DNA from: Hoylesella timonensis S9-PR14
GTDB lineage: Bacteria > Bacteroidota > Bacteroidia > Bacteroidales > Bacteroidaceae
NCBI RefSeq assembly: GCF_000762405.1
Contig: NZ_JRPQ01000068.1
Location: 1 to 43,890, forward strand
DNA length: 43,890 bases
Direction: 5' to 3'
Shown: one piece after another, positions 5,792-43,489 of the stretch
Layout: each line of letters begins with the position of its first letter
Numbering within the stretch: position 1 is the first letter of the stretch
Notes under the pieces: model-generated
Database searches by the model: none
The model's input: the letters and a program-made list of their open reading frames with translations, nothing else
Told to the model about the DNA's origin: nothing
Made by a program: the position numbers and the translations under genes

Positions 5792-5802
5792 GAAGAATAA
5801 CA

Positions 5803-9054: not shown

Positions 9055-9066
9055 GTTGAAAAGAAG

Positions 9067-16561: not shown

Positions 16562-16620
16562 TTGTTAGTTTTTCTTTTTATCAGTTATTGTTGTTTAGTT
16601 ATTCTTGTATGTCTCAACTC

Positions 16621-18006: not shown

Positions 18007-18063
18007 ATTCTTGTTTTGTTTATTTGTTCTGATAATTTTTGTTGTTTATAATAATTGTATGAG

Positions 18064-19521: not shown

Positions 19522-19687
19522 TTTATTATTTTATTGTAAATGTCTTGATTAGAAAGTCCAGTATAATTGGCACTTTGCTAAATACTCTCACTCCTTTTAG
19601 CCGTGTATGTAAATTTTCTTTAGTTAGGAGAACGTGTCAGCCATCTGAGGAATGATGATGCGCAAAAGCCTTCCATTTAGCTGAAGT

Positions 19688-21193: not shown

Positions 21194-21197
21194 TTTC

Positions 21198-27185: not shown

Positions 27186-27214
27186 CCCAATCACATTTGA
27201 CAAAATAATTGATG

Positions 27215-27257
27215 CGTACCTTTCCTGCTAATGTGCAGGAAAGGCACGTTTCTTTTT
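27215..27257 (+). terminator. Strong hairpin between the binding-protein and glycosidase genes
   Basis: The perfect 10-bp stem CCTTTCCTGC/GCAGGAAAGG (27219-27228 and 27235-27244), extendable by three pairs and a wobble past one mismatch, is followed by TTTCTTTTTGG. It fits an intrinsic terminator about 30 bases after the stop codon. I see no convincing promoter between it and the next start, so some readthrough is expected and it likely works as an attenuator. Confidence 0.7.
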
Positions 27258-27349
27258 GGAGCAACAGTGTACAGATAGCTGGCACTGCCATGAAATCTGG
27301 TGGCAGTATCAATCGTACAAACATTCTAAACCTAAATATTTTCATTTCT

Positions 27350-30300
27350 ATGATTCAGAAAACATTGTTATTATTTACCTTGATGGTGAACCTCTTTGCG
27401 TTGCATGGCAGCGCCGAAGTGTTGCAACCGTCGACCACCTTGCCTGCCGATGGTTGTCCCGAACATCTTTACACCATTACCAATGGCAACGGTTACAGCA
27501 TGAATACACTAACTGCTCCTACACAAACCAATGCGAACTGCGGCCTGTTTGCCTTCTATGCGGTTGATGGAAAGACTGGAAGCTACTATATTTACAGCTA
27601 CGGAGCCAAGAAGTGGCTCACCTATGCAGTAGGCGCATCGTATGGAACAGGTACAGCGTTCGTCACGCTCAGCGAGCAGAAAAACGAACACTGCTATTTT
27701 GTTACTTCGCCCGTTGGTAACGATGGCTATGAATTCTCACCTGTCACGGCACAAGGAGACAAGGCGGCATTATACTTGAACTGGTTTCAGGGCATTGGTG
27801 CAAGCAATCCCTTGGACGGCAAGGTGGCCGTAGGACTTTGGACAGATGGTGGCAATCGAGACAACGGAAGTAAGTGGAACATCAAGGAAATGGTACGCTA
27901 TAGCTATACTATCAAGGTAACTGGAGCGGAAAAGATACAAATCAGGGGTGAGAACTATGTCTCTGGCGATGTTTACACCACCCTGCAACCATTGCAGCAA
28001 TCCGATATTGTCGCACCACGTCAAACAGGCAAGTTTGCCGTTATATCCATCAACGACGCATTGCATCGCATCACGGTAGCTTATGCCAATACTCCCGTGC
28101 ATCCAGCCGTTGCCACTTATGCCAACGCCGTGGTGTACCCTACACAACAAAACAATGTTGGAATGGCTGTTGCAACAGAGGAAAATGGAGTGTACACCTT
28201 GAGCAACAATGTGTTGGCTGCTTCGTTCATGAAAGTAGATGAACAACTGTATTTTGCTGGATGCAAAGCCATGAGTCTACAACCAGGCACCGAACTCTTT
28301 GTGGTGGCTTTTGGTAATGGCATGCGTGTTCCTGCCTCAGCCATGAAGTTAAGGAGCGTTGAACTTGTAAACTTGCCTGCCAACCCGCAAGCGGTGGGTG
28401 GTGCGGAACATTATCCCGGCAAGGTATTGGTGGCAAAATATGAATACCAGTTTGGCGATGCCACCCTGCAAACGGTATGGAAAGCCGTACTAAGGGACGG
28501 TAGTCACTACCTAAGAAGCGAAATGGAGATGACGGGTCTGGGCGATGTAGATATGCACAGCGTGATACCTCTTTCATATATGGTAGATACAAAAGCCGCT
28601 GGTAGTGTGCCACAGGTGGTGGGAAACACCCGTGGCGCTGTGATTTTGAGTAATCAGTTGTTTGCAGGATTGGAGAATCCCGTTGGATACAATACCGTGG
28701 GCAATGCGGTAGGAAACGACCATGCGTACGAGTTGGTGAGCAACAAAGAGGAGAATTTGCAGGTGGCATCATGGTTGCAGGTAGATGAGGCTCGTCTGCC
28801 CATGCGAGTAATTGAAGCTACAGGTGCAGCTTATCCGCAGGTTAATGCCTATACCATGCACGACTTTGTATTGAAGAAGAATCAAAAGGTGTCGGTAACG
28901 GTTAGCTATACTGGCGGTTCGCATCGGCTAAACTTAGGTGGAGCCGACTTGCTGGATGCTCACGGTGACGTTGCTGCCAGCGATTATCACAAGGGATATA
29001 CGGGTTCTACCGAGAAAGATAATGCGTTTTCTTTCATTGCTCCTTACGACGGGACATTTAACTTGCGTGTCTTTGCGGAGACAAAGACCGAGACGATAAC
29101 GGCTACCAGCAAACTGACAGTAGATATTTTCTCGCCCAAGGAAAACATCGTAGTGCAACAAGACTTGGTGCCAATACAGGGACTTTGGAGTAGAAACACT
29201 ACCTTGAAAAATGGAGAAACGTGGAAAATATCAAGTGTTGTGGGATTAGTTGCGCAAGATGGGCAACAAGCCAATAACGACATAAATAAGACACAGAAAC
29301 GCCGTTCGTTCCTTGCTTACTCCGAACGTGAGCGCGCAGTACCATGGCATTCTAACCCAGTTTACATCTCATGGTACGAACTGAACATTGATCGCAACAA
29401 CGCTTTGGACCCCACAGGCAACATGAAAGCCAGTCAGGTGCTGAACATACTTAATCAATGGAAAGAAAAACTCTACGACCGTTATGGCGTAGCCCCCAAT
29501 AGTTTTGTGATTGATGATGGATGGGATAACTACGGAACGTGGACGTTTCATGCAGGCTTTCCTAACGAAATGCGTGACATTGCAGCCAAAGCAGCTACAA
29601 TGGGTGCAGGTGTTGGTGCATGGTTAGGACCCGTTGGCGGATATGGACAAAGCGGAGAATACCGCAGAAACTATTGGAAAAGCAAGGGTGGCATGGTGCT
29701 TTCAAACCCTGCCTACTACAAAGTGTTCTTGGATGCGGCTACCAATCTCACTCAAAACAACGGAAACTTCAACTTTTTCAAGTTTGATGGCATCTCCGCA
29801 CAGTTCTCTGCAACAGGTCCAGACAAGGGTGATGTGGGCAATGAAAATGCTGAAGGTATCATCCGTTTGGAGCGTTATGTGCGTGAAAGACTCAAGCGCG
29901 ATATCTTTTTCAACACTACGGTAGGTACCTGGGCCAGTCCTTTTTGGTATCATTTTACGGATGCTACTTGGCGACAGGAGGGCGATTATGGAACCATTGG
30001 CAACAACGCTATTGATCGAGAAAACTGGATTACTTATCGCGACAGACTGGTGTACCAAAACTATGTGGCGAGTTCACCGCTGTGTCCTATCAATACCTTG
30101 ATGACTCATGGGTTCATTCTCACCCGCTTTGGACAGGTGAGCAAGAATATGGACTATGAGGCATGCAGACGTGAGTTGCGTTGCGCCTTTGCCTGTGGAT
30201 CGGGTATGGTGGAACTGTACAACGACTATGCCTTGATGAACAATATCGCTGACGGCAAATTGTGGAGCGACTTAGCAGAGTGCATACAATGGCAGAAACG

Positions 30301-31639
30301 CAATGCCGATGTCTTGCCCGATATACATTGGGTTGGTGACAATCCTTGGAATGGCGTCAAGACAGCGGTTTATGGTTGGGCTGCATGGAATGGAACAAAG
30401 TCGGTGTTGACGCTTCGCAATGGTGGAAATGACGAGCAAACATACCAGTTTACACTTCGTGAGGCGCTTAACATTCCTGCCAACGTGAATGGAAGTGTAG
30501 TATTGCGCAAATCGTTTGGCGAACAAGCTGCTTTGAATGGGCTGAAGGAGGGTGTATCCATTGACATAGACCGCTCCCTTATCGTAAAATTACCAGGCAG
30601 CAGCGTGTATAGTTTCGAAGGCTTGGATGCTTCGGTGTCTGCCGTAAATGTGACATCCATCGCCCTTGTCGCTGAGCGTGACAATAGACAGGTAGAAGTT
30701 GGCAAGACCTTTGTGCTGCGAACCAATGTGTTGCCCACCGATGCTACTTATCCCGTCTGTGCGTGGACATCGAGCGACACAGGGACGGCAACTGTGTACA
30801 ACGGTTGTGTAAAAGGACTGAAGCCAGGAAAAGTAATGATAAAAGCGATGGCATTGGACGGCTCGGGCGTGGAGACAGAAATCGAGATAGAAGTAGTGAA
30901 GGCGACGATAGGTGAGCAGCAACCATATGCCGTGAACTTTGACAAACAGACACAGCCAGTAAATACACAAAGGCATTTGAACGCAATCTCACTCACAGCG
31001 GACAACAACACGGCGCAACTGGTGACGATTGGCAGTAGGATGCCTTATGTAGACCTTACTGCCGACGACGCCAAGCGTTTTGTTTGCAAGACTGGAGCGA
31101 CACTGACGGTAAAATTTGATTATGCTGGTACTTGGATGCATGGCTATGTGTATGTTGATGAAGACCATGACAAGCAGTTCTCCTTCTTAGAGGAAAATAC
31201 CAATCAGCAAGGCAGCGAGCTACGTGCTTTTAGCTTTTACTCGGGCAATGCGTTTCAAGATGAATCGGGAGTAAATTCCTTAGGAGAGAACATTAGTGGC
31301 AATGCGCGTAACATTCTTAATCCACCATCGTTCACGGCTCCCAAGAAGACTGGCGACTATCGCATGCGGTTCAAGATTGACTGGAACAGTGTAGATGCTG
31401 GTGGACGCAAGGCAGTTGACGGCACTTGTACGGGGTACAATGGCATACTGACCAATGGAGGTGTGATAGTGGATGCTATCTTGCAGGTTGAGAATGACTT
31501 AACTGACATTGAACAGGTGGAAACAGATAGTGTGGGGCAACCTGTTTTTTATGATTTGCATGGCAGGCATTTGGATAAAGCACCTGTGCATGGCGTGTAT
31601 ATACAGAAGAGCAATTCGGCAAAGAAGATTGCAAAATAG
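27350..31639 (+). CDS. Large secreted multidomain glycosidase, clan GH-D (GH27/36)-like
   Basis: The frame is open from 27209, but the ATG at 27350 gives a clear signal peptide (MIQKTLLLFTLMVNLFALHGSA) and 1429 residues. The order is: N-terminal domain shared with the preceding gene (about 24-180); beta-sandwich region; an NPCBM-like piece near GGSHRLNLGGADLLDAHGD; a (beta/alpha)8 catalytic core; an Ig-like BIG2 domain (about 1100-1180); the GEVED-like domain (about 1188-1385); sorting tail. The core has FVIDDGWD (719-726), FFKFDG with D813 as likely nucleophile, and TDATWRQEGD with D871 as possible acid/base. These resemble clan GH-D alpha-galactosidase-type enzymes, though the exact family is not clear. 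It probably acts outside the cell on alpha-linked galactose or a similar sugar. It is convergent with the phosphatase locus and ends at a shared terminator. Confidence 0.8.
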   Translation: MIQKTLLLFTLMVNLFALHGSAEVLQPSTTLPADGCPEHLYTITNGNGYSMNTLTAPTQTNANCGLFAFYAVDGKTGSYYIYSYGAKKWLTYAVGASYGTGTAFVTLSEQKNEHCYFVTSPVGNDGYEFSPVTAQGDKAALYLNWFQGIGASNPLDGKVAVGLWTDGGNRDNGSKWNIKEMVRYSYTIKVTGAEKIQIRGENYVSGDVYTTLQPLQQSDIVAPRQTGKFAVISINDALHRITVAYANTPVHPAVATYANAVVYPTQQNNVGMAVATEENGVYTLSNNVLAASFMKVDEQLYFAGCKAMSLQPGTELFVVAFGNGMRVPASAMKLRSVELVNLPANPQAVGGAEHYPGKVLVAKYEYQFGDATLQTVWKAVLRDGSHYLRSEMEMTGLGDVDMHSVIPLSYMVDTKAAGSVPQVVGNTRGAVILSNQLFAGLENPVGYNTVGNAVGNDHAYELVSNKEENLQVASWLQVDEARLPMRVIEATGAAYPQVNAYTMHDFVLKKNQKVSVTVSYTGGSHRLNLGGADLLDAHGDVAASDYHKGYTGSTEKDNAFSFIAPYDGTFNLRVFAETKTETITATSKLTVDIFSPKENIVVQQDLVPIQGLWSRNTTLKNGETWKISSVVGLVAQDGQQANNDINKTQKRRSFLAYSERERAVPWHSNPVYISWYELNIDRNNALDPTGNMKASQVLNILNQWKEKLYDRYGVAPNSFVIDDGWDNYGTWTFHAGFPNEMRDIAAKAATMGAGVGAWLGPVGGYGQSGEYRRNYWKSKGGMVLSNPAYYKVFLDAATNLTQNNGNFNFFKFDGISAQFSATGPDKGDVGNENAEGIIRLERYVRERLKRDIFFNTTVGTWASPFWYHFTDATWRQEGDYGTIGNNAIDRENWITYRDRLVYQNYVASSPLCPINTLMTHGFILTRFGQVSKNMDYEACRRELRCAFACGSGMVELYNDYALMNNIADGKLWSDLAECIQWQKRNADVLPDIHWVGDNPWNGVKTAVYGWAAWNGTKSVLTLRNGGNDEQTYQFTLREALNIPANVNGSVVLRKSFGEQAALNGLKEGVSIDIDRSLIVKLPGSSVYSFEGLDASVSAVNVTSIALVAERDNRQVEVGKTFVLRTNVLPTDATYPVCAWTSSDTGTATVYNGCVKGLKPGKVMIKAMALDGSGVETEIEIEVVKATIGEQQPYAVNFDKQTQPVNTQRHLNAISLTADNNTAQLVTIGSRMPYVDLTADDAKRFVCKTGATLTVKFDYAGTWMHGYVYVDEDHDKQFSFLEENTNQQGSELRAFSFYSGNAFQDESGVNSLGENISGNARNILNPPSFTAPKKTGDYRMRFKIDWNSVDAGGRKAVDGTCTGYNGILTNGGVIVDAILQVENDLTDIEQVETDSVGQPVFYDLHGRHLDKAPVHGVYIQKSNSAKKIAK

Positions 31640-31740: not shown

Positions 31741-33195
31741 TTACGGTTGTGGCAAGAAAAGGATGTTGTCGGGTAATGGACGCTCCGTGATATTGCGACT
31801 GGCATAGCCTACCTGCAATTCCTGTCCCATGTAGTCTTCAAAGTATCGAACCTCAATTTCATGAAAACCTGGCTCGAGTGCCACTTTTCCTTCAGCTCTT
31901 CGTGCACTGTGTCCGCCATCGTTGTCAACAACCAATTGGTTATCAATCAATAATTTGCTACCGTCGTCTGAGTAGGTGTAGAAGCGATATACGCCACGTT
32001 CTTTTATTTGGATGTATGCACGGAAGATATAAGCAAAATGGTCGTTTTGCTTTGCGTTGCTGATAAAGAAGTTTTTCATTGTTCCACTCTCTACCTTTTT
32101 CAACGTGTGAATGTCTTTGGTGTGCTTAATCTTACCTTCAAAATACGTGTATGCTACCCCCTGCTTGGATGGCTTCACAGGTTTTGCTGGCAGATAGTTC
32201 ATCGTTCGTTCATCTTTCGATGTGAGTGCAGACGGATAGTAGAAAGTGTCTTCTTTCTTCTTGGCTGTCCGTACCCATGTGTCAAATTTGCGCTGACCTT
32301 CGTATAGCTCGATGATTCTACCGCCACGGTCTACTTTTCCATACGCATCAAGACCACTCGCACGACCATAACCTAAGGCAATATTATATTCCATGCCGAT
32401 AAAATCGTTGTCGTGGTCGTGTCCGCAAAACACGCCCATTACATCTTTCATGTCGATGAAGGAAGCAAACATGCCCGAATTGATATTGGATGAACAGACC
32501 TCACCGTCTCCATAGTTCCCCAAGTAATCGTTGCGAGCCACGACATGCTTGAACTCTACCAGCGGTATATGAAAGAAAGCAAGTGCTGGGAGTGGCTTAT
32601 TACTGTTGGCTTGGGTATATTTCTTACTTTCTGTCCGATACCATTGTATTTGGTCAAAGTGTATCCAATCGTATGCACCATACTCTTTGATTGGCTGATA
32701 GTCGTTGGAGTCAATGCAATAAATCAAGGCTGCTGGTTTGTCGCTGCTCTTATTTGAAGAATAAATAGGAATAGAACAGTTGCCATACCCCGTGATGTTG
32801 GTTGCCCCTATACATCCTGCGTAATAGGGAGAGGCTGTAAGCTGTTGGTATATTTCTTTTTTACTCCTCACCTCGGCATCATGATTTCCCATTACAACCA
32901 CAAAGGGCAGATGAGAATTTTCAAAGATTTGGATGATTGATTTCCAACCTTCTGCGGCAGGTTGTTCGGTTACAATGTCGCCTGTAAGAATGGCGATGTC
33001 GGGCTTTTCAGTTTGTATGACCTCCTGAATGATTGCTGAAGTTTGCTTACAATTAGCTGATTTCGCATCCCAGTGAATGTCTGTAAATTGAGCTATCCTA
33101 AACTTTCCGTCATGGAAACGGAACGTGTGTTGACTCCATACATTAAAGGTGGTTAGGAATGTCAATAGCAATGACAAGAAAAGTGACTTTTTCAT
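31741..33195 (-). CDS. Exported calcineurin-like phosphoesterase with C-terminal PA14 domain
   Basis: The 484-residue protein has a signal peptide (ending NVWSQ) and a dimetal phosphoesterase domain with all the expected ligands: DIH (D39, H41), GD (D73), GNHD (N104, H105), a later FFH and the GHDHDND site. Residues from about 340 to the end carry a PA14-like domain (YRFYTYSDDGSKLLIDNQLV, GGHSARRAEGKVALEPGFHEIEVRYFED), often a carbohydrate-binding fold. The layout is that of a secreted phosphomonoesterase or phosphodiesterase directed to a glycan. It is the last gene of the minus-strand locus, 30 bases after the ROK kinase gene. Confidence 0.88.
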   Translation of the reverse strand: MKKSLFLSLLLTFLTTFNVWSQHTFRFHDGKFRIAQFTDIHWDAKSANCKQTSAIIQEVIQTEKPDIAILTGDIVTEQPAAEGWKSIIQIFENSHLPFVVVMGNHDAEVRSKKEIYQQLTASPYYAGCIGATNITGYGNCSIPIYSSNKSSDKPAALIYCIDSNDYQPIKEYGAYDWIHFDQIQWYRTESKKYTQANSNKPLPALAFFHIPLVEFKHVVARNDYLGNYGDGEVCSSNINSGMFASFIDMKDVMGVFCGHDHDNDFIGMEYNIALGYGRASGLDAYGKVDRGGRIIELYEGQRKFDTWVRTAKKKEDTFYYPSALTSKDERTMNYLPAKPVKPSKQGVAYTYFEGKIKHTKDIHTLKKVESGTMKNFFISNAKQNDHFAYIFRAYIQIKERGVYRFYTYSDDGSKLLIDNQLVVDNDGGHSARRAEGKVALEPGFHEIEVRYFEDYMGQELQVGYASRNITERPLPDNILFLPQP

Positions 33196-33225
33196 TATTT
33201 GTAAGAATGGATAAATGAATAAATT

Positions 33226-34065
33226 TTATAATTGGGCAGCGCCTAAAATATTACTGTCTTTGAGCTTAGAAAAGATGATTTGAACGCCTTCGGCTTCTTT
33301 CGGGAACAAGAAATTTTCGTGCATCGACTCATACATTGATTGCTCAAAGAGAGAGTGCGACAAAGAGATTCCGCCTCCGATGATGATGGCTTCTGGGTTG
33401 TATGCGTACAGAATTACTTGCAATAATTTTCCTAAATGGAAGCCTAATTCTTTCCATTTTTCGAGTGCGGCTTGGTCTCCTTGTGCGGCTTTCAATGCTT
33501 CTTGCTGCCCCGTTGTATGCCATTTGTTGAACAACTGACTGCTGGTGTAGTCTTCGTAGATGCTATCCAAATAAGGAATACAGCCGATTTCGCCAGCACC
33601 AGTATGAACTCCTCGGTACACCTCTTTGTTGATAACGATGCCGGCACCGACACCTGTTCCCAAGGTGATGCCTACAAAGTCTCTGAAAGGTTGCCCCGCT
33701 CCCAGCACATTCTCTGCGGCAACAAAGCAATTCACGTCATTGTCTACCCTTGTTTCCAAGTTAAAGCGTTGTTCAAGAATTTCCTTTAGATGTACCTCTG
33801 TCCACGAAGGTATGTTTTGAACATGGTACACAATGCCCTTCTTGTAATCTACAATGGAGGGTACTGCTATGCCTATGCGTTCAACTGATGATTGGTTGAG
33901 CCGTGTTATCATTTGTGCGATTTGCTCTAACACTTCATTTTGAGTTCCGTTGGCAAGGCATGGCTCTTGCAAGGAGGCTTCAATTTGCCCATTTCTTACT
34001 CTCGCAGCTCTAAGATTGGTGCCACCAAGGTCGATGGCTATACATGTTGTCGTTGTTTGATACAT
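33226..34065 (-). CDS. ROK-family sugar kinase
   Basis: I start at the ATG at 34065 (279 residues); an upstream TTG would add six. There is no signal peptide, so it is cytoplasmic. The ATP-binding IAIDLGGTNLR (9-19), the catalytic DNDVN (D110), GITLGTGVGAGIV and the C-terminal AIIIGGGIS are typical of ROK glucokinase-like enzymes. The usual zinc site (CxCGxxGCxE) is missing: after GAGEIGC the chain reads IPYLDSIYEDYTSSQLF. Zinc-free ROK members of this kind seem common in Bacteroidetes. It would phosphorylate the sugar released by the locus. It is the only cytoplasmic enzyme of the locus and lies between the glycosidase and phosphoesterase genes. Confidence 0.88.
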   Translation of the reverse strand: MYQTTTTCIAIDLGGTNLRAARVRNGQIEASLQEPCLANGTQNEVLEQIAQMITRLNQSSVERIGIAVPSIVDYKKGIVYHVQNIPSWTEVHLKEILEQRFNLETRVDNDVNCFVAAENVLGAGQPFRDFVGITLGTGVGAGIVINKEVYRGVHTGAGEIGCIPYLDSIYEDYTSSQLFNKWHTTGQQEALKAAQGDQAALEKWKELGFHLGKLLQVILYAYNPEAIIIGGGISLSHSLFEQSMYESMHENFLFPKEAEGVQIIFSKLKDSNILGAAQL

Positions 34066-34091
34066 GTTTGTTTTTTTTATCAATAAAAGTG

Positions 34092-35705
34092 TTAGAGGGA
34101 ATGTTTACCAACCCCAACCTGTTGTTCTAATTTTTTGTCACTCCAAAGTAAGATGACTTTAAAGGGTACGTTCGTTTGAATAGTGACCTTAGGCTTCTCC
34201 TCTTTAGAGTTGCGTTTTTGTACTTTGAAGGAAATAAGTCCATCCTGACCATAAGGATACTTATCAATGCCATAAGCATCTAACAGGTTGACATCCATGG
34301 TAATGGTGTTCTGTTCATGGTTAGCTCTAATGCCAAAGATGTATTCGATGAGCTCGGCAATGGGAGGAAGCCCTGTCCAACCCACAAAGTCCTTGCGAGC
34401 CATGAAGCCGGGATTGCTACTTTCGGGTGCATAATATTCAAAGAAAGTACCAGTCTTCTTGTATACCTCCAGCACGTTGTTATAATGATTCATGGTAATA
34501 TCCCATGCCAACTGCCGATATCCTTTGTCTACGAGCCCGGAGATGATCATGTAATTGGTGCCTGGCCATACGCCTCCAACCCAATAACGCCCATTAGCCT
34601 TGTATTTAGGATGACTATGCGAGAGGGAAGGGATGCGATGCGGACGATTAAACTTCGTGGTATCGGTCAAGTGAGCAACCAGTTTGTCCAACCGTTCTTT
34701 GGACAACACGTCGGTATGTAGCGCCCAATAGGCATAGATACCTTGTGTAGTGCTAAGACTGTTGTCTGCATATTGGTCATAGAGAAAGCCATCTTTGTCG
34801 CTCCACATGTTGTCGTTAATGTATTGTGAAAGGTGCTTTATGTCATCTTCGAAGGTTTCTATCTCTTGCCAACGTTCCAAGTAGAAGCCCATTTTCAACA
34901 AAATCTTAGCCACCATAATTTGTTGCAAGCAGGCATCTAACCATATCATGTGTCCATGACTGTAGATGGTGTTGTATCCGTCTTGTACTCGTGGCATGTT
35001 ATCCATGCCCGTTCCCCAGCCACTCGACCAATAAGTACCATTGCGCCAAGTACGATTTAGCTTTAACCATTTGTAGTATGCTGCCAGTACAGGGAAGACC
35101 TTGTTGAGCCGATTGTCATCGCCAAACTGTGTATAATACAGCCATTCGGACCATGGCAGAATATTGGGACCCGTGCTGGTAGGGTCGTATCTGCCGAAAC
35201 AATCGCTACCATCGGCACGTATCTCTCTACAAATAAAGCCGTCGGGATGTTGCTTGGCATAAAAGTTGTCTAAGCTTTTTTGAAATGGGAAGAAGTTTTT
35301 ACCATATCGGCAGAACATCGTGATAAAGGCATTGTCCCACATAAAGATGTTTCCATTGTAGGCTGGAGCGATATAACTGGTTACAAATCCAGAGTCATCT
35401 AACGGCTGACAGATGTTTTTAATCCCTATTTCCCATGCCTTCCAGTACATCTCTATTTCCTTGTTGTGCCCTTCCCAATAGGGAGATGGCAACACTTTTT
35501 TGGCTTGTGCAAAGGTTCCCGGTTGGGTCTTCTCAACCTTAGCCGTACGAAAACTGTTCTCTGCCACTAACGTTTCCATGACGTAGGTGTTCTTGTAAGG
35601 AAGTTTGTACAAAGGTGACCCCGACGATATTAGGTTTTGTGCCATCATGTTCAGTGGCAACATGATACCGAGGAAGAGAAGAAGTTGATTAAGTTTTTTC
35701 AGCAT
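34092..35705 (-). CDS. Exported trehalase/GH63-like glycosidase
   Basis: The frame is open further upstream, but the ATG at 35705 gives a good signal peptide (MLKKLNQLLLFLGIMLPLNMMAQ) and 537 residues. The core is an (alpha/alpha)6-barrel enzyme of the trehalase (GH37), GH63 and mannosylglycerate hydrolase group: GNIFMWDNAFITMF with the conserved Asp, PDGFICREI, a YWSSGWGTGMDNMPR segment, GGVWPGTNYMIISGL, FFEYYAPES, and DFVGWTGLPPIAELIEYIFG. Such enzymes remove alpha-linked glucose or mannose from short oligosaccharides with inversion. I cannot pick the substrate. The 144 bases between it and the alkaline phosphatase gene are the longest gap in the locus. Confidence 0.82.
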   Translation of the reverse strand: MLKKLNQLLLFLGIMLPLNMMAQNLISSGSPLYKLPYKNTYVMETLVAENSFRTAKVEKTQPGTFAQAKKVLPSPYWEGHNKEIEMYWKAWEIGIKNICQPLDDSGFVTSYIAPAYNGNIFMWDNAFITMFCRYGKNFFPFQKSLDNFYAKQHPDGFICREIRADGSDCFGRYDPTSTGPNILPWSEWLYYTQFGDDNRLNKVFPVLAAYYKWLKLNRTWRNGTYWSSGWGTGMDNMPRVQDGYNTIYSHGHMIWLDACLQQIMVAKILLKMGFYLERWQEIETFEDDIKHLSQYINDNMWSDKDGFLYDQYADNSLSTTQGIYAYWALHTDVLSKERLDKLVAHLTDTTKFNRPHRIPSLSHSHPKYKANGRYWVGGVWPGTNYMIISGLVDKGYRQLAWDITMNHYNNVLEVYKKTGTFFEYYAPESSNPGFMARKDFVGWTGLPPIAELIEYIFGIRANHEQNTITMDVNLLDAYGIDKYPYGQDGLISFKVQKRNSKEEKPKVTIQTNVPFKVILLWSDKKLEQQVGVGKHSL

Positions 35706-35849
35706 AATTGATGATGTAAGCTTTGATAAGTTATCTTGCGATAGGATTTCTTTATAGTACATTCCAGTTTTTTGTTTGTATCTTATGTGTGACTGGTAAG
35801 TGTAATTTAGAGTATTGACGATTTTTGAGACGAATAGAGCAATCCACAA

Positions 35850-36977
35850 TTATAGTCGCATCAGTTTTTTAATCTTCCAGAAGATTTCCGTATTGTCCAT
35901 GAATCCAGTAAATTCTTCTGCACCAGGGCCGAAAGCGTATACGGGAACCATAACGCCAGTGTGACCAGTGCTTGCAAATTTTGCTTCAATGCGTCCAGTT
36001 GCTAAGTCACCCCCGTGTAAAGTAAGACCTCCCGTTTCATGGTCAGCAGTTACGACAACTAACGTTTCACCATCTTTGGCAGCCCATTTCATGACTTCAC
36101 CAATGGTACGGTCAAAGTCGTGCAGTTCTTTCATGAGCATATCCAGTTGATTAAAATGTCCATAGTCGTCTAATTGTGACCCTTCAACCATCATGAAAAA
36201 GCCATTCTTGTTTTGATTCATTAAGCTGATACCTTTCATGGTAGCGCGAGCAAGTAAGTCGCCACGCTCATCAGGAAGGGGAGTGTCCACCTCGTAAGGC
36301 ACGCAGAATACCTTTCCGCTTTCCCATTTTTCTAATTCCTCCCACGTCCTGGCAATGTAGTAGCCTTGATTTTTCAACTCTTCGAAGATGTTACGACCAT
36401 CTTTCCTGTTCGTGAAATACTTGGCTCCACCACCAAAAGCAAAGTCAACGCCACTGGTTGGATAGTCAGCTACGATTTCCTGTTCGTTATCCCTGTTGAT
36501 GTTATGGCAGCAGAAATCGGCAGGCGTGGCATCCCATAAGCGACATGTCACAGCAATTCCCGCATCTTTGCCTTTTCGTTTTGCAAGATCTATGATTGTT
36601 GTAAGCGGTTTCCCTTCTGGGTCAACCCCTACAGCATGGTATTTCGTTTTGTGTCCTGTTGCCAATGCTGTGCCACCTGCGCCCGAGTCGGTGATGAGCT
36701 TATCGGTGCAATGAGTAGCCGACAGTCCAATGTATTGTGCGTTGTCGAGCCATAAACGTCCTCGATTGCACACCCAAGCGGCATAGACATCCATCAGCGA
36801 CATGCCGTCGCCTATCATTAAGATAACATTTTTTACTTTCTTACCTTTGGGAGCTTTGAGCTTTTCAACCTTGTATGGGTGCTCCATGGTGTATGTTTGC
36901 ATGTTGGTATTTTGTGCAAATCCATAATGGATGCTTCCAAGGAGTAAATATAATATAATTGATAGTTGTATCTTCAT
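35850..36977 (-). CDS. Exported alkaline phosphatase (PhoA family)
   Basis: The ATG at 36977 gives 375 residues; a TTG three codons upstream is less likely. After a signal peptide (ending IHYGFAQ), the PhoA-type active site is complete: GDGM (D57), the phosphorylated serine in TDSGAGGTA (S98), ATPADF, EGSQLDDYGHFN, TADHETGG and STGHTG. It therefore should be an active periplasmic phosphomonoesterase with two zinc ions and a third metal. Unlike stress-type phosphatases, it sits in a SusCD locus, suggesting that it removes phosphate from the imported product rather than scavenging phosphate in general. It follows the hairpin at 36995-37037. Confidence 0.92.
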   Translation of the reverse strand: MKIQLSIILYLLLGSIHYGFAQNTNMQTYTMEHPYKVEKLKAPKGKKVKNVILMIGDGMSLMDVYAAWVCNRGRLWLDNAQYIGLSATHCTDKLITDSGAGGTALATGHKTKYHAVGVDPEGKPLTTIIDLAKRKGKDAGIAVTCRLWDATPADFCCHNINRDNEQEIVADYPTSGVDFAFGGGAKYFTNRKDGRNIFEELKNQGYYIARTWEELEKWESGKVFCVPYEVDTPLPDERGDLLARATMKGISLMNQNKNGFFMMVEGSQLDDYGHFNQLDMLMKELHDFDRTIGEVMKWAAKDGETLVVVTADHETGGLTLHGGDLATGRIEAKFASTGHTGVMVPVYAFGPGAEEFTGFMDNTEIFWKIKKLMRL

Positions 36978-36984
36978 TTTTTTC

Positions 36985-37037
36985 AAATAAGAAAGGACAA
37001 CTTGACCGTACGTACATTTGTAGTAGTCAAGTTGTCC
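36985..37037 (-). terminator. Intra-operon hairpin between import and enzyme genes
   Basis: A perfect 12-bp inverted repeat (GGACAACTTGAC at 36995-37006 with GTCAAGTTGTCC at 37026-37037) encloses 19 bases. On the minus strand it is followed by TTTCTTATTTG. It lies eight bases after the stop codon of the 263-residue lipoprotein gene and before the alkaline phosphatase start. It should lower transcription of the downstream enzymes relative to SusC, SusD, EEP and the lipoprotein. Confidence 0.7.
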
Positions 37038-37045
37038 TAAGGTTT

Positions 37046-37837
37046 TTACTCTACACTCGCTTCTATAGAAATTTTGTATGCAGTCAACTTCCCAATGCTC
37101 TCAGGAACGGTTTCTCTTAAGACCCAGGATGCAGGGGCAAGGACGAAAATGGCATAATCCGTATTTTTGCAAGCAATTGACAGATTGTATCCCACTATGT
37201 CTTTTGCCAATCCATTTAACTCGTCAACAATATTGCTCTTTACTGTTCCTATAATAATATTCTTTTCTTTTGAGGCGAAACTGTTGAGAATAGGAGCAGC
37301 TGTCCGAATCTGTTTAGAGGTATTGAAACGTATGGTTGAGAATGGCACCAATATGTCAAGAGGTTTTTCAACATTTGTTTTTGTCATGATAGGAAGATAC
37401 TTCAGGTTGCATTCACTTGAAATATGGATGCTTTTTTCTTCATTAATCTTATGGTTGAAAAGAATTGTACTCCCCTCTATGTTCATTCCTGCATATTTTT
37501 GGAAAGCAAAGCTGCTAAAACGGTTAGTATTTACAGCGAGTATTGTCGTACCTACCTGAGCATTATAGACTTGTGGGTAGTTTATGACGTCTGAACGGTC
37601 AACGACAGCGATGGATATCTTCTTGCCGTTGGAGTTTATATAGTTTGACACTTCTCCATAATTTTCTATGGGTTTATCTTTAAGTTCAGAAATGAAATAA
37701 AAATCAACAGTTTTGTTCTTGTCCCATTCCTTCTTTTCTTCTATGGACTGATTGTTGGGTATTACTCCCCATTCTTCTTTTAGGCATGAGGATAAAAGTA
37801 GACAACCGAAAGCAATTGCGATATATTGAATTTTCAT
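37046..37837 (-). CDS. Small lipoprotein of the phosphatase locus, unknown
   Basis: The 263-residue protein has a lipobox (LSSC, C18) followed by acidic LKEEW, suggesting surface display. I do not recognise the family. It contains two similar beta-rich halves, with VDFYFISELKDKPIENYGEV early and DILVPFSTIRFNTSKQIRTA later. It overlaps no other gene, starts nine bases after the EEP gene and belongs to the SusC-SusD-EEP block before the hairpin. By position it could be a surface glycan-binding protein or accessory of the SusCD complex. Confidence 0.55.
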   Translation of the reverse strand: MKIQYIAIAFGCLLLSSCLKEEWGVIPNNQSIEEKKEWDKNKTVDFYFISELKDKPIENYGEVSNYINSNGKKISIAVVDRSDVINYPQVYNAQVGTTILAVNTNRFSSFAFQKYAGMNIEGSTILFNHKINEEKSIHISSECNLKYLPIMTKTNVEKPLDILVPFSTIRFNTSKQIRTAAPILNSFASKEKNIIIGTVKSNIVDELNGLAKDIVGYNLSIACKNTDYAIFVLAPASWVLRETVPESIGKLTAYKISIEASVE

Positions 37838-37846
37838 AAGACATGA

Positions 37847-38650
37847 TTATTTAAGTTGTAAAATAGACAATACAGGACAGTGGTCTGATAATTCTTTTTG
37901 GTTTAGAAATCTCTCAAGAACTTTGCATGATTGTAAATACCATTGTCCTTTCGAACCAAAGATAAAATCTATTTTGGACACTCCCATATATGTACCATTG
38001 TCGTTATCCATTCTTTCGTAACGAGTGAGATATTGATTGATGACTGAAGAACCAACTCCCTGATTCATATCGCCAGTTAAGATGGTTGGGAGGTTAGAAC
38101 TCGTTATTTCGTCAGAAGTGATTACTTTTGCTTGTTCCAATTGCCCGCCAATATGGTCAAGGTGAGTTGAAATAATGCGGATTGTTTTGCCCGATGGTAA
38201 CAATACGTCTGCAGCGATAACGCTACGTTGGTCGGCAGAACCTTTAGGGCGAGGTAACTGTTTACTTATGACGTTCATGATGGGATAACGGCTGAGAATG
38301 GCGTTGCCATACAATTCGTTCATACAATACTTGTAATTTGCTTCAGGATATTCACCTTGTTTGTTAGAAAGATTATAAGAATAACCGAACGTTCCAAACA
38401 TATGAAGATTTAATGCGAGTTCTTGAACAACATCCCTGAATTTACCATTCTTTTGTTGTCGAGAGCTACGGTTTTCCACTTCGTTTAAACAGATGAAGTC
38501 GGCTTGTTCTCCTTTTAGTAAATCAGCGTAAGGTTTTGTATCAAAATCAGGTTCAAATGACCTGACGTTGAATGTGATTACCTTTACTGTCTCTTGCGCG
38601 TAAATAGGAATGACGCACAGTAATAATATTCCTAATAGTATCTTTTTCAT
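37847..38650 (-). CDS. Exported endonuclease/exonuclease/phosphatase-family hydrolase
   Basis: The 267-residue protein carries a signal peptide (MKKILLGILLLCVIPIYAQ) and a full EEP fold: TFNVR (N28), LNEVENRSS with the metal-binding E57, STHLDH, the TGDMN motif and the C-terminal SDHCPVLSI histidine. Family members include DNases, sphingomyelinases and inositol-phosphate phosphatases; they cut phosphodiesters or phosphomonoesters with magnesium. Export and the position right after SusD suggest a phosphodiester in the target glycan or glycolipid. The locus has two other phosphatases, so this enzyme would expose phosphomonoesters for them. A nuclease is the alternative. Confidence 0.85.
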   Translation of the reverse strand: MKKILLGILLLCVIPIYAQETVKVITFNVRSFEPDFDTKPYADLLKGEQADFICLNEVENRSSRQQKNGKFRDVVQELALNLHMFGTFGYSYNLSNKQGEYPEANYKYCMNELYGNAILSRYPIMNVISKQLPRPKGSADQRSVIAADVLLPSGKTIRIISTHLDHIGGQLEQAKVITSDEITSSNLPTILTGDMNQGVGSSVINQYLTRYERMDNDNGTYMGVSKIDFIFGSKGQWYLQSCKVLERFLNQKELSDHCPVLSILQLK

Positions 38651-38661
38651 GTCAGTATGTA

Positions 38662-40257
38662 TTAATAACCTTTATTTTGCTTTAAATTTCCTCCATTGCT
38701 TTTCTTTACTTCCGAATCTGGAATAGGGAAGACTTGGTTCTTGACGGGGTCGAAGTTTCTGGCAGGCCATATTTCGCATTCTTGAATACTTGTAATTTTC
38801 ATTCCATCAGTAGATGAGATGATGCCATGTAAAGGCTTGGCGTATGCTGTCTTCGCATCTCCCCATCTTACAAGGTCGAGATGGCGACTTGGCTGGAATT
38901 CAAAAGCAAGTTCACATCTTCTTTCATTTTTCAATTGGGCTTTTGTTGCATGCGAGTTAAGAGGTAGTCCTGCTCGTTGACGTATTTGGTTTATTAACCC
39001 AATGGCCTCGGAATTTCCTTCTCCTTTAGTCCAAATAAGTGCCTCTGCTTTCATCAGAATAATATCTGCATAGCGTATAAGTGTCATGCCCAGAGTATTG
39101 CTGGCATTGTTGCCACTTGGATTAAGTGTCTTTCCAATACAGTCAGCCGATTCAAAAGGTGCCATAAATTTTTTGAAGAGCATACCAGAGGTGCTTGATA
39201 TCTCACGTGGATTAACGCCTAACTGTATGTTATGACCAATAAATTGAATGTGTTGTCCAGGGTATAATATTGTAGCATCTCTCCGCTGGTCGTTCTTTTC
39301 GTAAGCTTTATACAATTCTAAGGTTGGCTGAAAGTACCCCCATGTGTTGAAATATCCCCAACCTCCGTTTTGGAAAGACATTCCATGGAATTTAGGTCCT
39401 TCTTTGGCATTGCCCAACAATGAGAATATGTATTCTTGGCAAAAATTGTTTTCTGGTCGAAATAGCTGAGCATAGTTAGGATATAAACCTCGTTTGTCTT
39501 TTCCGCTCATGTTAATGACTTTGTCACACAGTGCGATTACTTTATCATAATACTTAGAATTGAATTGTGCCGCATATAGTGCCGCACGTGCAGCAAAGGC
39601 CCATGCCGCAGCTTTGTGTGGGCGACCGTATTCTGATTCAGGTAGCTCAGAGAAATAGGGTAGAAGGCTTGCTGCCTGCTCCATATCCTGAATTATCATG
39701 TCGTAGTTTGCCAATACGGAAGAAGGTCGAGGTTGGTCTAATTCTGCCGTTGGCGTTTTTTCTGTAACAATAGGAATTCCACCATTAGGACCATTGTCTC
39801 CATAGAAGGGAGCCAACCACAAATATGCAAAAGCACGGTAGAAAAGGGCTTGTCCAATAGCGTTGTCTTTTTTCGTATTGGATATATTCATCTCGGGAAC
39901 ATTACGTAAGACATCGTTTGCCTTTGCTATTAATTGATACATATAGGGCCAGTTGTCTTTTGCATCGCGACCATTAGATGCAGACATTTGAAAGTTTTTT
40001 ATTTGTGCGGCTTCTGCTTGGGGACGTCCTGTCACTATATTGTCGCTGCAATTTTCAAACCACATAAATCCACGTCCAGTGACTCCTTCTTTGTATGTAA
40101 ATTCGTGGAACGCATTAAGAGCTTTGTCTACATCTGATTCTGTTTTCCAAAAGTTGACAGAACCCTGCAGTCCATAAGGCTCGAATTCTAAAAAGTCATT
40201 GCAACTACTTGCAAGTACAGTAAGTAATATTGCAAATGTGATGTTTCTTATATTCAT
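38662..40257 (-). CDS. SusD/RagB-family surface lipoprotein of the phosphatase locus
   Basis: The ATG at 40257 gives a lipoprotein signal (MNIRNITFAILLTVLASSC, C19) and 531 residues; the open frame extends further but would overlap the SusC gene. SusD features are clear: CNDFLEFEPYG at the mature N-terminus, the IGQALFYRAFAYLWLAPFYGDNG helix, and C-terminal KNERRCELAFEFQPSRHLDLVRWGDA. It would cap the SusC barrel and select the ligand. It starts 22 bases after SusC and ends 11 bases before the EEP gene. Confidence 0.93.
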   Translation of the reverse strand: MNIRNITFAILLTVLASSCNDFLEFEPYGLQGSVNFWKTESDVDKALNAFHEFTYKEGVTGRGFMWFENCSDNIVTGRPQAEAAQIKNFQMSASNGRDAKDNWPYMYQLIAKANDVLRNVPEMNISNTKKDNAIGQALFYRAFAYLWLAPFYGDNGPNGGIPIVTEKTPTAELDQPRPSSVLANYDMIIQDMEQAASLLPYFSELPESEYGRPHKAAAWAFAARAALYAAQFNSKYYDKVIALCDKVINMSGKDKRGLYPNYAQLFRPENNFCQEYIFSLLGNAKEGPKFHGMSFQNGGWGYFNTWGYFQPTLELYKAYEKNDQRRDATILYPGQHIQFIGHNIQLGVNPREISSTSGMLFKKFMAPFESADCIGKTLNPSGNNASNTLGMTLIRYADIILMKAEALIWTKGEGNSEAIGLINQIRQRAGLPLNSHATKAQLKNERRCELAFEFQPSRHLDLVRWGDAKTAYAKPLHGIISSTDGMKITSIQECEIWPARNFDPVKNQVFPIPDSEVKKSNGGNLKQNKGY

Positions 40258-40279
40258 TTTATAGATGATTTTAGTAAGG

Positions 40280-43200
40280 TTAGAAATTAAAATTAAGCCC
40301 GAAATTAAATGATCGTGAAATAGGATATGTACCCGCGTCAATGCCAAAGTTTCCAACTTCAGGATCTATACCAGTGTAATCTGTAATGGTTAAGAGATTT
40401 TCGCAATTTAGATAGAATCTGATAGTGGTATTTGTGAAACCCAATAGTTGTGTGACAGACTTTGGACAAGTATAGCCTACAGTTATGTTCTTCAATCTTA
40501 GATAGCTTCCATTTTCCAAATAAAAGTCCGATGGATTGGTGAAGTTACCATTAGGGTCACTTATTAATGCCAAACGTGGAATGCCTGAAGTCTTATCGTA
40601 ATCCCATGCATTTAATATAGAACTCAACATGTTCCCTCCTTGCTGTCTTCCCGTGAGTGTCATTTGCTTGAATCCGTTATAAATTGTAGATAGTCCTACT
40701 CCTTGGAATTGGATACTGAAATCTACGCCTTTGTAGGATGCATTACCTCCAAAGCCAAAAGTTATTTTTGGCATATAACTCCCCATATATTGGTTGTCAT
40801 CTGCATTAATTTTTCCATCGTTATTGAAATCAACATATTTCAAATCTCCAGGTTTAGCGTTAGGCTGTATAATGTTACTTATGCCTGTTTTTGGGTCTGT
40901 CCATTTGTAATTGTTTATTTCATCTTGCGTCTGGAAAATACCATTTGTTTTCAAAACATAAAACGAATACCAAGGATGGCCAACTGTAGAACGAAGTGGA
41001 CGTTGGCTGTTTATCACGACATCGTGTTCCAATGTGCTTCTTGCTCCTAAGTCAAGCACTTCGTTATGGACGGTAGCAAGGTTGGCATTGAGGCCAAATG
41101 TAAAGCCGTGTATTTTCTTTTGGTAGTTGGCACCGAATTCCCAACCCTTATTAACAACATTACCTACGTTTCCGTATGGTTCCACGGCAATACCTGCAAC
41201 AGAGGTGACTGGCACTTTCTCAATTAAGTCTTTGGTATGCTTGTTGAAATAGTCAATGGTTAAGCTCAGCTCGTTGTTGAATAGGCCTAAGTCCAGTCCT
41301 ACACCCCATTGTTCAGTAGTTTCCCATTTTAAGTTTTTGGTTCCTATAGATTCTGCGTAAGTTCCGTATACGATATTGTCCAAATTTTTGCCATAGATAA
41401 TCGGCCATTCTGTTGTTCCTAACGGGACATTCCATGAATATCTGGGTACTAATGCAACATTACCCACCTGCCCCCAGCTTGCTCGTAACTTAAAGAGACT
41501 AACAATGTTTTTTATCGGTGCGAAGAAAGGTTCGGATGAGATTTTCCATGATCCTGACAAAGCAGGGAATATACCAGAGTTATTGTTTTTATATAGTTTA
41601 GACGTGGCATCTCTTCTCACGCTGGTAGTCGCAAAATATCTGTCTTTCCACGAGTAACCTATTCTCCCAAAGAAAGACATCATTGATTCTTCCCATAAGT
41701 TTTCAGAAGGTTTATATTTACTCCAATCACTTGCTTGTCCGAGTGTCGAAGAGTGACGGTCTTCTTGATCGTATCCCGTAGTGTAAATGCCATAAGATTT
41801 ATATTTGTCATATTTCATGGTGAAGCCGGCCATGACACTTAAATGGTGTTTGCCGAATACCTCTGCATAGGTGGCTGTATTCTCCCATAGCCAGTTGCTC
41901 AGACGGCTATGCTCGATGTTGTGTCTATTCTCTTCCGATTGGTTTCCTGGCTCGGGTATTTTGTGTATAAATTCATCAAATTCAGTGTCTATAAGTCCAG
42001 ATGTAAACTGAGATTTTAATGTCAATGCAGTGATAGGTTTGAGTTCCAGTGATGTGGTGGAAAATAATTTATGTGTTGGACGTTTTTGGTCTAACCTTTG
42101 CAGCATGGCTAAAGGATTTCTAAATTCACCGTAGCCACTGATACCTTTTGCTGCAGCCCATCTTGGTGTGGTTCCATGATAAAGAGGATGCTTATATTCA
42201 TCGTAGAGGATGTTACCTTCTTCATCGGTGTCATAGAGCGTAGCAGAACGTGGAAAGAAAATAGCATTTGGTAAAACTCCTTCGTGTCCTGTTCCTATGT
42301 TTCCTTGTCCATTCGTTAGCTGGTATGTAACTTGCTCACTAAGTTTTAGCCATTTGTTTATTTGAAAGTCTATGTTTCCCTTGCTTCCCAATTTATTGGC
42401 GAATGTATTATTCAGAATGCCTGTATCCTTGTCATAACTAATTGATGCAAATCCTTTTAGATTGCCTGCTCCTCCTGAAAAAGAGATGGCATAGTGCTCA
42501 AGGTACCCTTTTCTAAAGATAGCATCTACCCAATCTGTTCGTGTTACATTTCCATATGGATATATGGCAGGGTTAGCAGTAGAGGGAAGTTTGCCACCAT
42601 AAATTTTAACAGCATCAGCCCATACTTTATTGTATTGTTCGGCTGTAAGTGTAGTTGGTAGGTTGATGGCACTTTTTATACTTTTCGATATATTAAAGTT
42701 CACCTTTATCTTTCCCTCTTTAGCTTGCTTTGTTGTGATAACGACAACACCGCCCGAACCTACACTTGCGCCATAGATGGCTGCTGATGCTGCGTCTTTT
42801 AACACTGTGATGGTTTCAATATCTTCAATGTTGTAAGGTGCACCAGGAACTCCGTCTACAATGTATAATACGCCATCACCACTGTTATAGCTATGGTCAG
42901 TGCCTCGTGACCCTCGTCCTCGAATAGATAGAGAAGCTTCCGAGAGAGGGTCTCCACCATTATTCTGGACCATTACTCCAGGCATTGCTCCCTGTAACAT
43001 GGATGCCAAATTTGAAGGACGACTCTTCATGGATTGATCTATCTTTACAGATGCGACAGCTGTTGAGAGGTCTTGTTTACGTTGGTTTCCGTAGCCTATG
43101 GCGACCACCTCAGACAACATGTTGGTATCTTCTTTCAATACGATATTCAGTGAACTACCAACAACTTTCACCTCTTTTGGGGAAAAGCCGACAGATGAGA

Positions 43201-43489
43201 CGTGTAGTATTGTGTTCTGAGTGGCGTTTAATGTAAATTTACCATTCACGTCTGTGACTGTACCGTTGCTGCTACCTACAATTTTAATGGTAGCACCAAT
43301 AACTGGTTCTCCATTAGTATCGGTTACGGTTCCTGTAATGTGGTCAGCTTTCTGCTGACTCATCTCTACCTTGTTTGCATTTGCATTATATGCAGATGCC
43401 ATTGTAGGCAAACACAGTGTCAGGGCTGTTAAAGCGGTGACTTTGAACAACTTGTTTTTGTTGCCTACTAAAAAAATAAACTTCTTCAT
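40280..43489 (-). CDS. SusC-family TonB-dependent transporter of the phosphatase locus
   Basis: The 1069-residue protein has a signal peptide (ending TMASA), a carboxypeptidase-regulatory-like domain (about 50-125), TonB-box-like MLSEVVAIGYGNQRKQ, the plug with signature IETITVLKDAASAAIYGASV, a barrel of over 800 residues and a C-terminal FNFGLNFNF. It is a standard importer of oligosaccharides or glycoconjugates with SusD. It lacks the STN domain, so it does not signal through an anti-sigma factor. It is the first gene of the locus and the promoter lies in 43490-43600. Confidence 0.94.
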   Translation of the reverse strand: MKKFIFLVGNKNKLFKVTALTALTLCLPTMASAYNANANKVEMSQQKADHITGTVTDTNGEPVIGATIKIVGSSNGTVTDVNGKFTLNATQNTILHVSSVGFSPKEVKVVGSSLNIVLKEDTNMLSEVVAIGYGNQRKQDLSTAVASVKIDQSMKSRPSNLASMLQGAMPGVMVQNNGGDPLSEASLSIRGRGSRGTDHSYNSGDGVLYIVDGVPGAPYNIEDIETITVLKDAASAAIYGASVGSGGVVVITTKQAKEGKIKVNFNISKSIKSAINLPTTLTAEQYNKVWADAVKIYGGKLPSTANPAIYPYGNVTRTDWVDAIFRKGYLEHYAISFSGGAGNLKGFASISYDKDTGILNNTFANKLGSKGNIDFQINKWLKLSEQVTYQLTNGQGNIGTGHEGVLPNAIFFPRSATLYDTDEEGNILYDEYKHPLYHGTTPRWAAAKGISGYGEFRNPLAMLQRLDQKRPTHKLFSTTSLELKPITALTLKSQFTSGLIDTEFDEFIHKIPEPGNQSEENRHNIEHSRLSNWLWENTATYAEVFGKHHLSVMAGFTMKYDKYKSYGIYTTGYDQEDRHSSTLGQASDWSKYKPSENLWEESMMSFFGRIGYSWKDRYFATTSVRRDATSKLYKNNNSGIFPALSGSWKISSEPFFAPIKNIVSLFKLRASWGQVGNVALVPRYSWNVPLGTTEWPIIYGKNLDNIVYGTYAESIGTKNLKWETTEQWGVGLDLGLFNNELSLTIDYFNKHTKDLIEKVPVTSVAGIAVEPYGNVGNVVNKGWEFGANYQKKIHGFTFGLNANLATVHNEVLDLGARSTLEHDVVINSQRPLRSTVGHPWYSFYVLKTNGIFQTQDEINNYKWTDPKTGISNIIQPNAKPGDLKYVDFNNDGKINADDNQYMGSYMPKITFGFGGNASYKGVDFSIQFQGVGLSTIYNGFKQMTLTGRQQGGNMLSSILNAWDYDKTSGIPRLALISDPNGNFTNPSDFYLENGSYLRLKNITVGYTCPKSVTQLLGFTNTTIRFYLNCENLLTITDYTGIDPEVGNFGIDAGTYPISRSFNFGLNFNF

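Follow-up and report, generated by a model that had tools for sequence, protein, structure and literature searches.

A SusCD operon of Hoylesella timonensis with several phosphohydrolase folds as a candidate locus for phosphorylated glycans

What would a bacterium feed on with an operon that joins a SusC/SusD uptake pair to three phosphohydrolases of unrelated folds, predicted to be exported, a glycosidase and a sugar kinase? Such a locus lies at 31741-43489 of the window, the whole stretch of 43,890 nucleotides from Hoylesella timonensis S9-PR14 (contig NZ_JRPQ01000068.1) that was analysed. Its phosphohydrolases are an EEP-family protein, a PhoA-type alkaline phosphatase (AP) and a calcineurin-type metallophosphoesterase (MPE), and its GH63/GH37-like glycosidase is called GHx here. 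Utilisation of a phosphorylated glycan of some kind was considered probable. Tentatively, the SusCD operon was proposed to take up small phosphorylated alpha-glycans with an inositol link, of the glycosylphosphatidylinositol (GPI)-anchor or glycosyl-inositol-phosphate type, and to strip them. A wider version of this proposal, which is doubtful, would place the locus in a conserved Bacteroidales family dedicated to GPI anchors and related glycosyl-inositol-phosphates, in which up to four unrelated phosphohydrolase folds would remove the phosphates in order, GHx would be the first known hydrolase of GlcN-alpha-1,6-inositol (or of Man-alpha-1,4-GlcN; GlcN, glucosamine) and a dead EEP protein would have turned into a phosphoglycan-binding surface lipoprotein.

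Gene set and conservation of the locus

Eight minus-strand open reading frames (ORFs) at 31741-43489 were confirmed as one set, with SusC as the first gene:

40280-43489, minus strand: SusC/RagA TonB-dependent transporter (TIGR04056, 826.7 bits in NCBIfam; TonB barrel and plug in Pfam)
38662-40257, minus strand: SusD lipoprotein (PF07980 1.6e-30, PF14322 7.5e-23; start and lipobox)
37847-38650, minus strand: EEP-family phosphohydrolase (EEPb), predicted exported (PF03372, Exo_endo_phos, 6.7e-14; motifs intact)
37046-37837, minus strand: lipoprotein, likely an EEP-fold pseudo-enzyme and surface binding protein (predicted model)
35850-36977, minus strand: PhoA-type AP, predicted exported (PF00245, Alk_phosphatase, 7.4e-66; 2w5v 1.5e-63)
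34092-35705, minus strand: GHx, GH63/GH37-like (alpha/alpha)6 glycosidase, predicted exported (Pfam: MGH1-like GH 2.5e-32, GH63 8e-12, trehalase 8e-10)
33226-34065, minus strand: ROK-family sugar kinase (PF00480 4.9e-46; no signal peptide)
31741-33195, minus strand: MPE, calcineurin-type metallophosphoesterase with C-terminal PA14, predicted exported (PF00149 1.5e-14, PF07691 1.7e-14)

The gene set, strand, signal peptides and intact motifs of three phosphohydrolases described in the initial annotation were borne out by Pfam and by reading of the signal peptides and motifs. Both marks of a polysaccharide utilisation locus (PUL) were present, namely adjacent SusC and SusD genes and a co-located carbohydrate-active enzyme (CAZyme), here GHx. 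A crude script, combined with reading, assigned signal peptides resembling those of signal peptidase I to EEPb, AP, GHx and MPE, of signal peptidase II to SusD and the lipoprotein, and none to the ROK kinase; the first four are thus predicted to lie outside the cytoplasm, the next two on the membrane and the kinase inside. Inner ATG starts were used for SusD (40257, where the ORF list began at a TTG at 40356), AP (36977), GHx (35705) and ROK (34065). Intergenic gaps measured 9-68 bp, except for about 144 bp ahead of the GHx ATG. Terminator-like sites within the set showed no excess (4, against 9.8 expected by shuffling), and a promoter motif scan gave no match.

A scan for GHx, with one genome per species, yielded 228 relatives, and the best 80 together with two loci from a plasmid collection (L001, L002) gave 82 loci, ranked by GHx similarity, so that distant relatives are under-sampled. 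Operons were defined as same-strand genes with gaps <350 bp by a custom ORF caller; many loci end at contig ends, and several come from metagenome-assembled genomes (MAGs). Partner families were named by Pfam, apart from a PI-PLC-like protein that had no Pfam match and was named by its record annotation. The nearest named loci were those of Hoylesella buccalis, H. timonensis and a Prevotellaceae MAG (GHx 97-98% identical). The GHx operons contained AP (72 of 82), GH92 (43), MPE (39), a second EEP type, EEPa (33), and ROK (31), and more rarely GH125 (19), a short MPE (16), a GDPD-like domain (15), the PI-PLC-like protein (14) and GH20 (13). Some relatives (for example L048, L050, L070 and L074) held GH92, EEPa, AP, GHx, GH125, GH20 and MPE together, and it is in such relatives only that candidate enzymes for most steps of GPI-glycan breakdown share one locus. 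GH92 or GH125 was found near GHx in 50 of the 82 loci. Of the 48 well-flanked loci, with at least 8 kb on either side, 46 contained AP, 34 contained GH92 or GH125, and 32 had three or more of the four phosphohydrolase folds. The AP-GHx grouping is not due to chance, given AP in 72/82 operons and 46/48 well-flanked loci; the initial annotation had proposed looking for the same gene set in other Bacteroidales, with a lack of synteny in relatives as a refutation, and the outcome was in its favour, since AP, GHx and further phosphohydrolases were kept together across that order.

Among 36 genomes of the window's genus, a close GHx was found in four and a close AP in the same four, with a distant AP in one more (Fisher p 8.5e-5, kinship ignored). 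The distribution of the locus within the genus is thus patchy, with AP accompanying close GHx.

The operons also held 59 unlabelled genes. A joint scan of the 41 with 200 aa or more is represented here by 25 of its 97 families, and 18 of the 41 were also scanned singly, as were c17 and c25, so that rare partners may be missed. The single scans showed one occurrence each of GH43 (L020), GH97 (L052), a sulfatase (L049) and a second MGH1-like protein (L058). A further AP-superfamily gene of the phosphodiesterase/sulfatase-like type (PF01663) was observed in 4 of the 82 operons (L010:11823-12725, L009, L013 and L068), and three scanned neighbours in L008 were a peptidase, a TPR protein and a Clp-type ATPase. 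In Leyella lascolaii (L012:7165-8469), a myo-inositol-1-phosphate synthase gene stands about 250 bp upstream of the AP-GHx pair on the same strand; a link between inositol synthesis and GHx loci was dropped, since this gene occurred in that one locus only.

Partner enzymes and the proposed substrate

The common theme of the loci with EEPa, GH92 and GH125 partners is a phosphorylated alpha-mannoside, because these partners are a mannosyl-6-phosphatase homologue and two mannosidase families. Pfam names GH125 as an alpha-mannosidase family; its specificity is alpha-1,6. One GH92 was sampled, from L050, and was nearest to BT3130 (1.8e-186), 7zgm and BT3965 (4e-172). According to the sources cited, 7zgm is an alpha-1,3-mannosidase (PMC9522356), and the alpha-1,4-mannosidase BT3965 comes from a PUL whose function is not known; its authors named GPI anchors and fungal walls as sites of alpha-1,4-mannose (PMC5930347).

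The size of the substrate was approached through 22 genomes that were hand-chosen for long flanks and spread. AP had already been seen beside GHx in all 22, so its presence near GHx in 22/22 is no independent test; GH76, GH130 and GH18 were unexamined before the genomes were chosen. Within 15 kb of GHx, 11 of the 22 genomes had a GH125. Not one had GH76 or GH130 at that distance, and the single GH18 match, 9.9 kb away, fell below the cut-off. Elsewhere in the same genomes, GH76 (10/22), GH130 (20/22) and GH18 (9/22) were present over the cut-off. Four genomes have GH76 next to a GH125 away from the GHx locus, an arrangement that resembles a classic alpha-mannan-type locus kept separate. The window's operon likewise had no GH76, GH18 or GH130 by Pfam. 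The absence of GH76, GH130 and GH18 near GHx therefore favours a small substrate.

These counts bear directly on an alternative in which the locus serves fungal phosphomannan or an N-glycan bearing mannose-6-phosphate. The homology of EEPa to a mannosyl-6-phosphatase and the joint presence of GH92, GH125 and GH20 in several loci would suit such a substrate, which was nevertheless judged very unlikely in view of the families missing near GHx but present elsewhere and of the separate GH76-GH125 pairs. The GH76 counts speak against a yeast alpha-mannan PUL, and those of GH130 and of GH18 over its cut-off against an N-glycan PUL. The initial annotation had suggested a phosphodiester-linked glycan and listed several candidates. 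A SusCD locus for a phosphorylated glycan remained the best reading, and among the listed substrates glycosyl-inositol phosphates fitted the extra enzymes of the relatives best; phosphomannan was disfavoured because GH76 never lay within 15 kb of GHx in the 22 genomes, though 10 hold it elsewhere, and teichoic acid was disfavoured as well.

The GPI-type proposal draws on the structure of the anchor. With alpha-mannose, mannose-linked phosphodiesters, an inositol phosphodiester, N-acetylhexosamine (HexNAc) and an inner alpha-glycoside, the GPI core gives each enzyme kind a candidate bond. The parts of PMC7125958 drawn on here describe this core as EtNP-6Man-a2-Man-a6-(EtNP)Man-a4-GlcN-a6-Ino-P-lipid (EtNP, ethanolamine phosphate; Ino, inositol), with GalNAc and Man4 side chains, and name the phosphodiesterase PGAP5/MPPE1 as the eukaryotic enzyme of EtNP removal. 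In the route proposed, binding and import of the glycan would fall to SusC/SusD, helped by the EEP-fold lipoprotein. The calcineurin-type/PA14 enzyme, joined in relatives by PI-PLC-like and GDPD-like domains, would open the ethanolamine-phosphate and inositol-phosphate diesters, and the EEP enzyme and AP would strip the resulting monoesters. Some relatives also encode GH92, GH125 and GH20 in this locus, which would release mannose and N-acetylhexosamine; GHx would cut an inner alpha-glycoside, most likely GlcN-alpha-1,6-inositol or else Man-alpha-1,4-GlcN, and the ROK kinase would phosphorylate the freed sugar. PGAP5/MPPE1 belongs to the metallophosphoesterase fold class, which would match MPE by analogy rather than by a test of homology.

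Several observations weigh against the GPI-type proposal. The window's locus contained no GH92, GH125, GH20, PI-PLC or GDPD; the genome holds four GH92 genes, all on other contigs, and no GH125, unlike 21 of 22 comparison genomes. Either, then, the GPI route would stop short in this organism with these families alone, or what is imported is a shortened remnant. The sampled GH92 belonged to the alpha-1,3/1,4 clade and not to the alpha-1,2 clade. Among the 82 loci, AP was absent from 10 operons and both GH92 and GH125 from 32 loci, for some of which contig ends account, and GH20 was confined to its 13 operons. No AP shares a contig with either of two distant GHx homologues (G042, 44% identity; G057, 34%), and in G046 AP stands beside MPE without any GHx match. 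MPE was itself inconstant: where the genus has a close GHx, in four genomes, a full MPE adjoins it in two, and the other two carry a short MPE (G012) or a PF01663-type gene and EEPa (G016) there. MPE resembles PGAP5 in family name alone; its profile matched solved phosphoesterases only marginally (0.027). The specificity of GHx is a guess from fold and elimination, and no characterised enzyme from any GHx locus was met.

Phosphohydrolases, glycosidase and uptake module

The motifs that we take to be those of the active sites read as intact in EEPb (FNVR/THLDH/GDMN/SDH), AP (GDGMS/DSGAGGTALATG/TADHETGG) and MPE (FTDIHWD/GD/GNHDAE/GHDHDND). No PF00245 gene besides AP was found in the genome of the window, and the metal-motif residues of MPE were unchanged across 26 sequences. 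EEPa of L050 matched 4c1r, the mannosyl-6-phosphatase BT3783, at 2.4e-49. EEPb and EEPa are distant relatives (25% identity, E 5e-9); EEPb searched alone against the PDB gave no match at 1e-3, and its profile reached 4c1r at 3.8e-15 with one EEPa row included, which favours that match. Because the wider EEP family includes a mannosyl-6-phosphatase, EEPb is more likely a monoesterase than a diesterase, and the earlier suggestion that the EEP enzyme opens diesters is not the best reading. The diester-openers are likely the calcineurin-type enzyme and, in relatives, also the PI-PLC-like and GDPD-like domains.

The gene at 37046-37837 directly follows the EEPb gene and had been described plainly as a lipoprotein. 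Its lipoprotein nature stood (signal peptidase II type), and the description was corrected to that of a fourth protein of phosphohydrolase fold, predicted to be inactive. The protein had no Pfam match, and its predicted model showed an EEP fold without EEP catalytic motifs. These motifs (N, GDxN, SDH) occurred in 0 of 10 lipoprotein homologues and in all 8 compared EEP sequences, one of which was EEPa. A comparison of the lipoprotein and EEP alignment profiles gave no sequence homology (probability 1.8), so the EEP fold is taken from the predicted model. As the catalytic motifs are absent, the protein was not filed as an EEP enzyme; it is likely a catalytically dead EEP-fold protein with a binding role at the surface.

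Domain fusions were found in varied combinations. In L072 (6579-9938), a GDPD-like domain, AP, a calcineurin-type domain (Metallophos) and PA14 are joined in one protein of 1120 residues, and P0061 is an AP-GHx fusion of 909 aa. Across the 82 operons, the GDPD-like domain was fused to AP in 15 and an MPE-type domain to the PI-PLC-like protein in 8. The diester-opening, monoester-removing and glycoside-cutting steps are thus physically coupled, which suggests consecutive steps on one substrate.

GHx was aligned and modelled as the protein without its first Met. It had the (alpha/alpha)6 catalytic domain and the sequence similarity that mark GH63, and its nearest kin were mannosylglycerate hydrolase, GH63 glucosidases and glucosylglycerate hydrolase. 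In the aligned domain it was 13-19% identical to the GH63 enzymes (mannosylglycerate hydrolase, glucosylglycerate hydrolase, YgjK and glucosidase I) and to GH37 trehalases. Mean column identity among GHx proteins was 71%, and the candidate catalytic Asp (GMDNMPR) and Glu (EYYAPE), assigned by motif, were invariant in 44 sequences. GHx is a separate, tightly conserved clade, of which no characterised member was met. The best PDB matches of the ROK kinase were the N-acetylmannosamine kinase 5nck (3.5e-25) and the glucokinase 2qm1 (1.1e-24).

The kinship of GHx and of the kinase also suits a bacterial phosphoglycan, such as an alpha-glucosylated glycerol-phosphate teichoic acid, of which the phosphoesterases would cut the chain and GHx would remove alpha-glucose for a ROK glucokinase. 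GHx is most like hydrolases of glucosyl- and mannosylglycerate and the GH63 glucosidases, the kinase matches glucokinases among others, GDPD-type domains occur in 15/82 operons and the window's locus itself lacks a mannosidase. On such a polymer, GH92/GH125 and the EEPa of 33 operons would have no role; the explanation was judged quite unlikely because of GH92 or GH125 in 50/82 loci, though neither is in the window's locus, and teichoic acid was dropped as a first choice on account of these mannosidase families.

Comparison with the H. buccalis and H. timonensis loci (L003, L004) revealed AP, GHx, ROK and MPE to be 94-98% identical to those of the window, against 41-42% for SusC and 29% for SusD; EEPb and the lipoprotein were absent from both. 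The window's own module (SusC, SusD, EEPb, lipoprotein) spans 37046-43489. Leaving L004 aside, the closest SusC proteins to that of L003 (63-66%) come from Bacteroides/Parabacteroides-type loci, the majority with a GH92, and its SusD was 78% identical to that of L006 and then 62-64% to such loci. The uptake module has been swapped while the hydrolytic core remained, which may mean that another variant of the glycan is taken up. The same pattern could mean that the loci serve several unrelated substrates, with the AP-GHx core acting on one small glycoside phosphate and recruited by different SusCD modules for different glycans. The recurrence of the same few enzyme families across genera, GH92 or GH125 in 34/48 well-flanked loci and the high column identity of GHx argue otherwise, and this was held to be the least probable of the explanations weighed.

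Other gene sets of the window were also observed. A plus-strand gene converging on the operon (27209-31639) encodes a protein of 1476 residues with Big_2 as its sole Pfam domain and the greater part of its sequence unassigned. A second SusCD-like pair (5803-9054 and 9067-10419) adjoins a DUF4953/DUF5117 met-zincin (3194-5791) on the plus strand at 3194-10419. A same-strand set on the minus strand (15455-23618) comprises two proteins with weak matches to lamin-tail domains (one also to DUF4876), two proteins without Pfam matches and a TonB receptor.

Comparison with known systems

Bacteroides alpha-mannan PULs combine GH76, GH92 and GH125 with the EEP-family mannosyl-6-phosphatase BT3783. Related GHx loci share with them GH92, GH125 and EEPa, a relative of BT3783 (4c1r; named from the PDB title), and differ in GH76, which those PULs carry and which lay less than 15 kb from GHx in none of the 22 genomes. 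To our knowledge, AP, MPE, PI-PLC/GDPD and GHx are not parts of alpha-mannan PULs. The B. thetaiotaomicron PUL of BT3965, as far as the cited sections of PMC5930347 describe it, has a GH92 of the BT3130/BT3965 clade, as does the relative L050, whereas the window's locus has no GH92.

The PUSI and PUSII loci (PusCD) of Flavobacterium johnsoniae resemble the window's locus in joining a SusCD pair to exported phosphodiesterases (PDEs) and phosphomonoesterases (PMEs), and PhoA1 of PUSII shares the PF00245 and PF13653 architecture of the GDPD-AP fusions of relatives (L037, L072), according to the portions of PMC8115612 consulted. This likeness is the ground for an unlikely explanation, although the least unlikely of the alternatives, in which the operon is a phosphate-scavenging SusCD locus of this kind that frees phosphate from mixed organic phosphates, with sugars as by-products. 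The same portions of PMC8115612 describe PUS loci as low-phosphate-induced and without CAZymes. The window's locus has the SusCD pair and PME/PDE genes of a PUS locus but is not CAZyme-free, since it contains GHx (as do all 82 loci by search design); it also encodes a ROK kinase without a signal peptide, and many relatives add alpha-mannosidase families (GH92 or GH125 in 50/82). Pure phosphate scavenging was accordingly weakened by the glycosidase in the operon.

In the open-access literature, neither a conserved hybrid with an AP-GHx core nor a bacterial locus that uses GPI glycan as food was found described; for the hybrid, subscription papers lay mostly outside the searches, not all of which were aimed there. 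On animal and fungal cells, many surface proteins are tethered through GPI anchors. If the GPI-type proposal is true, a set of gut, oral and rumen bacteria would possess a defined pathway that could remove host anchors or feed on them, and GPI glycans could be trimmed with GHx and its partners as tools. Even with another substrate, the family marks a hybrid of PUL and PUS, both known kinds of locus, in which dephosphorylation is probably coupled to sugar release.

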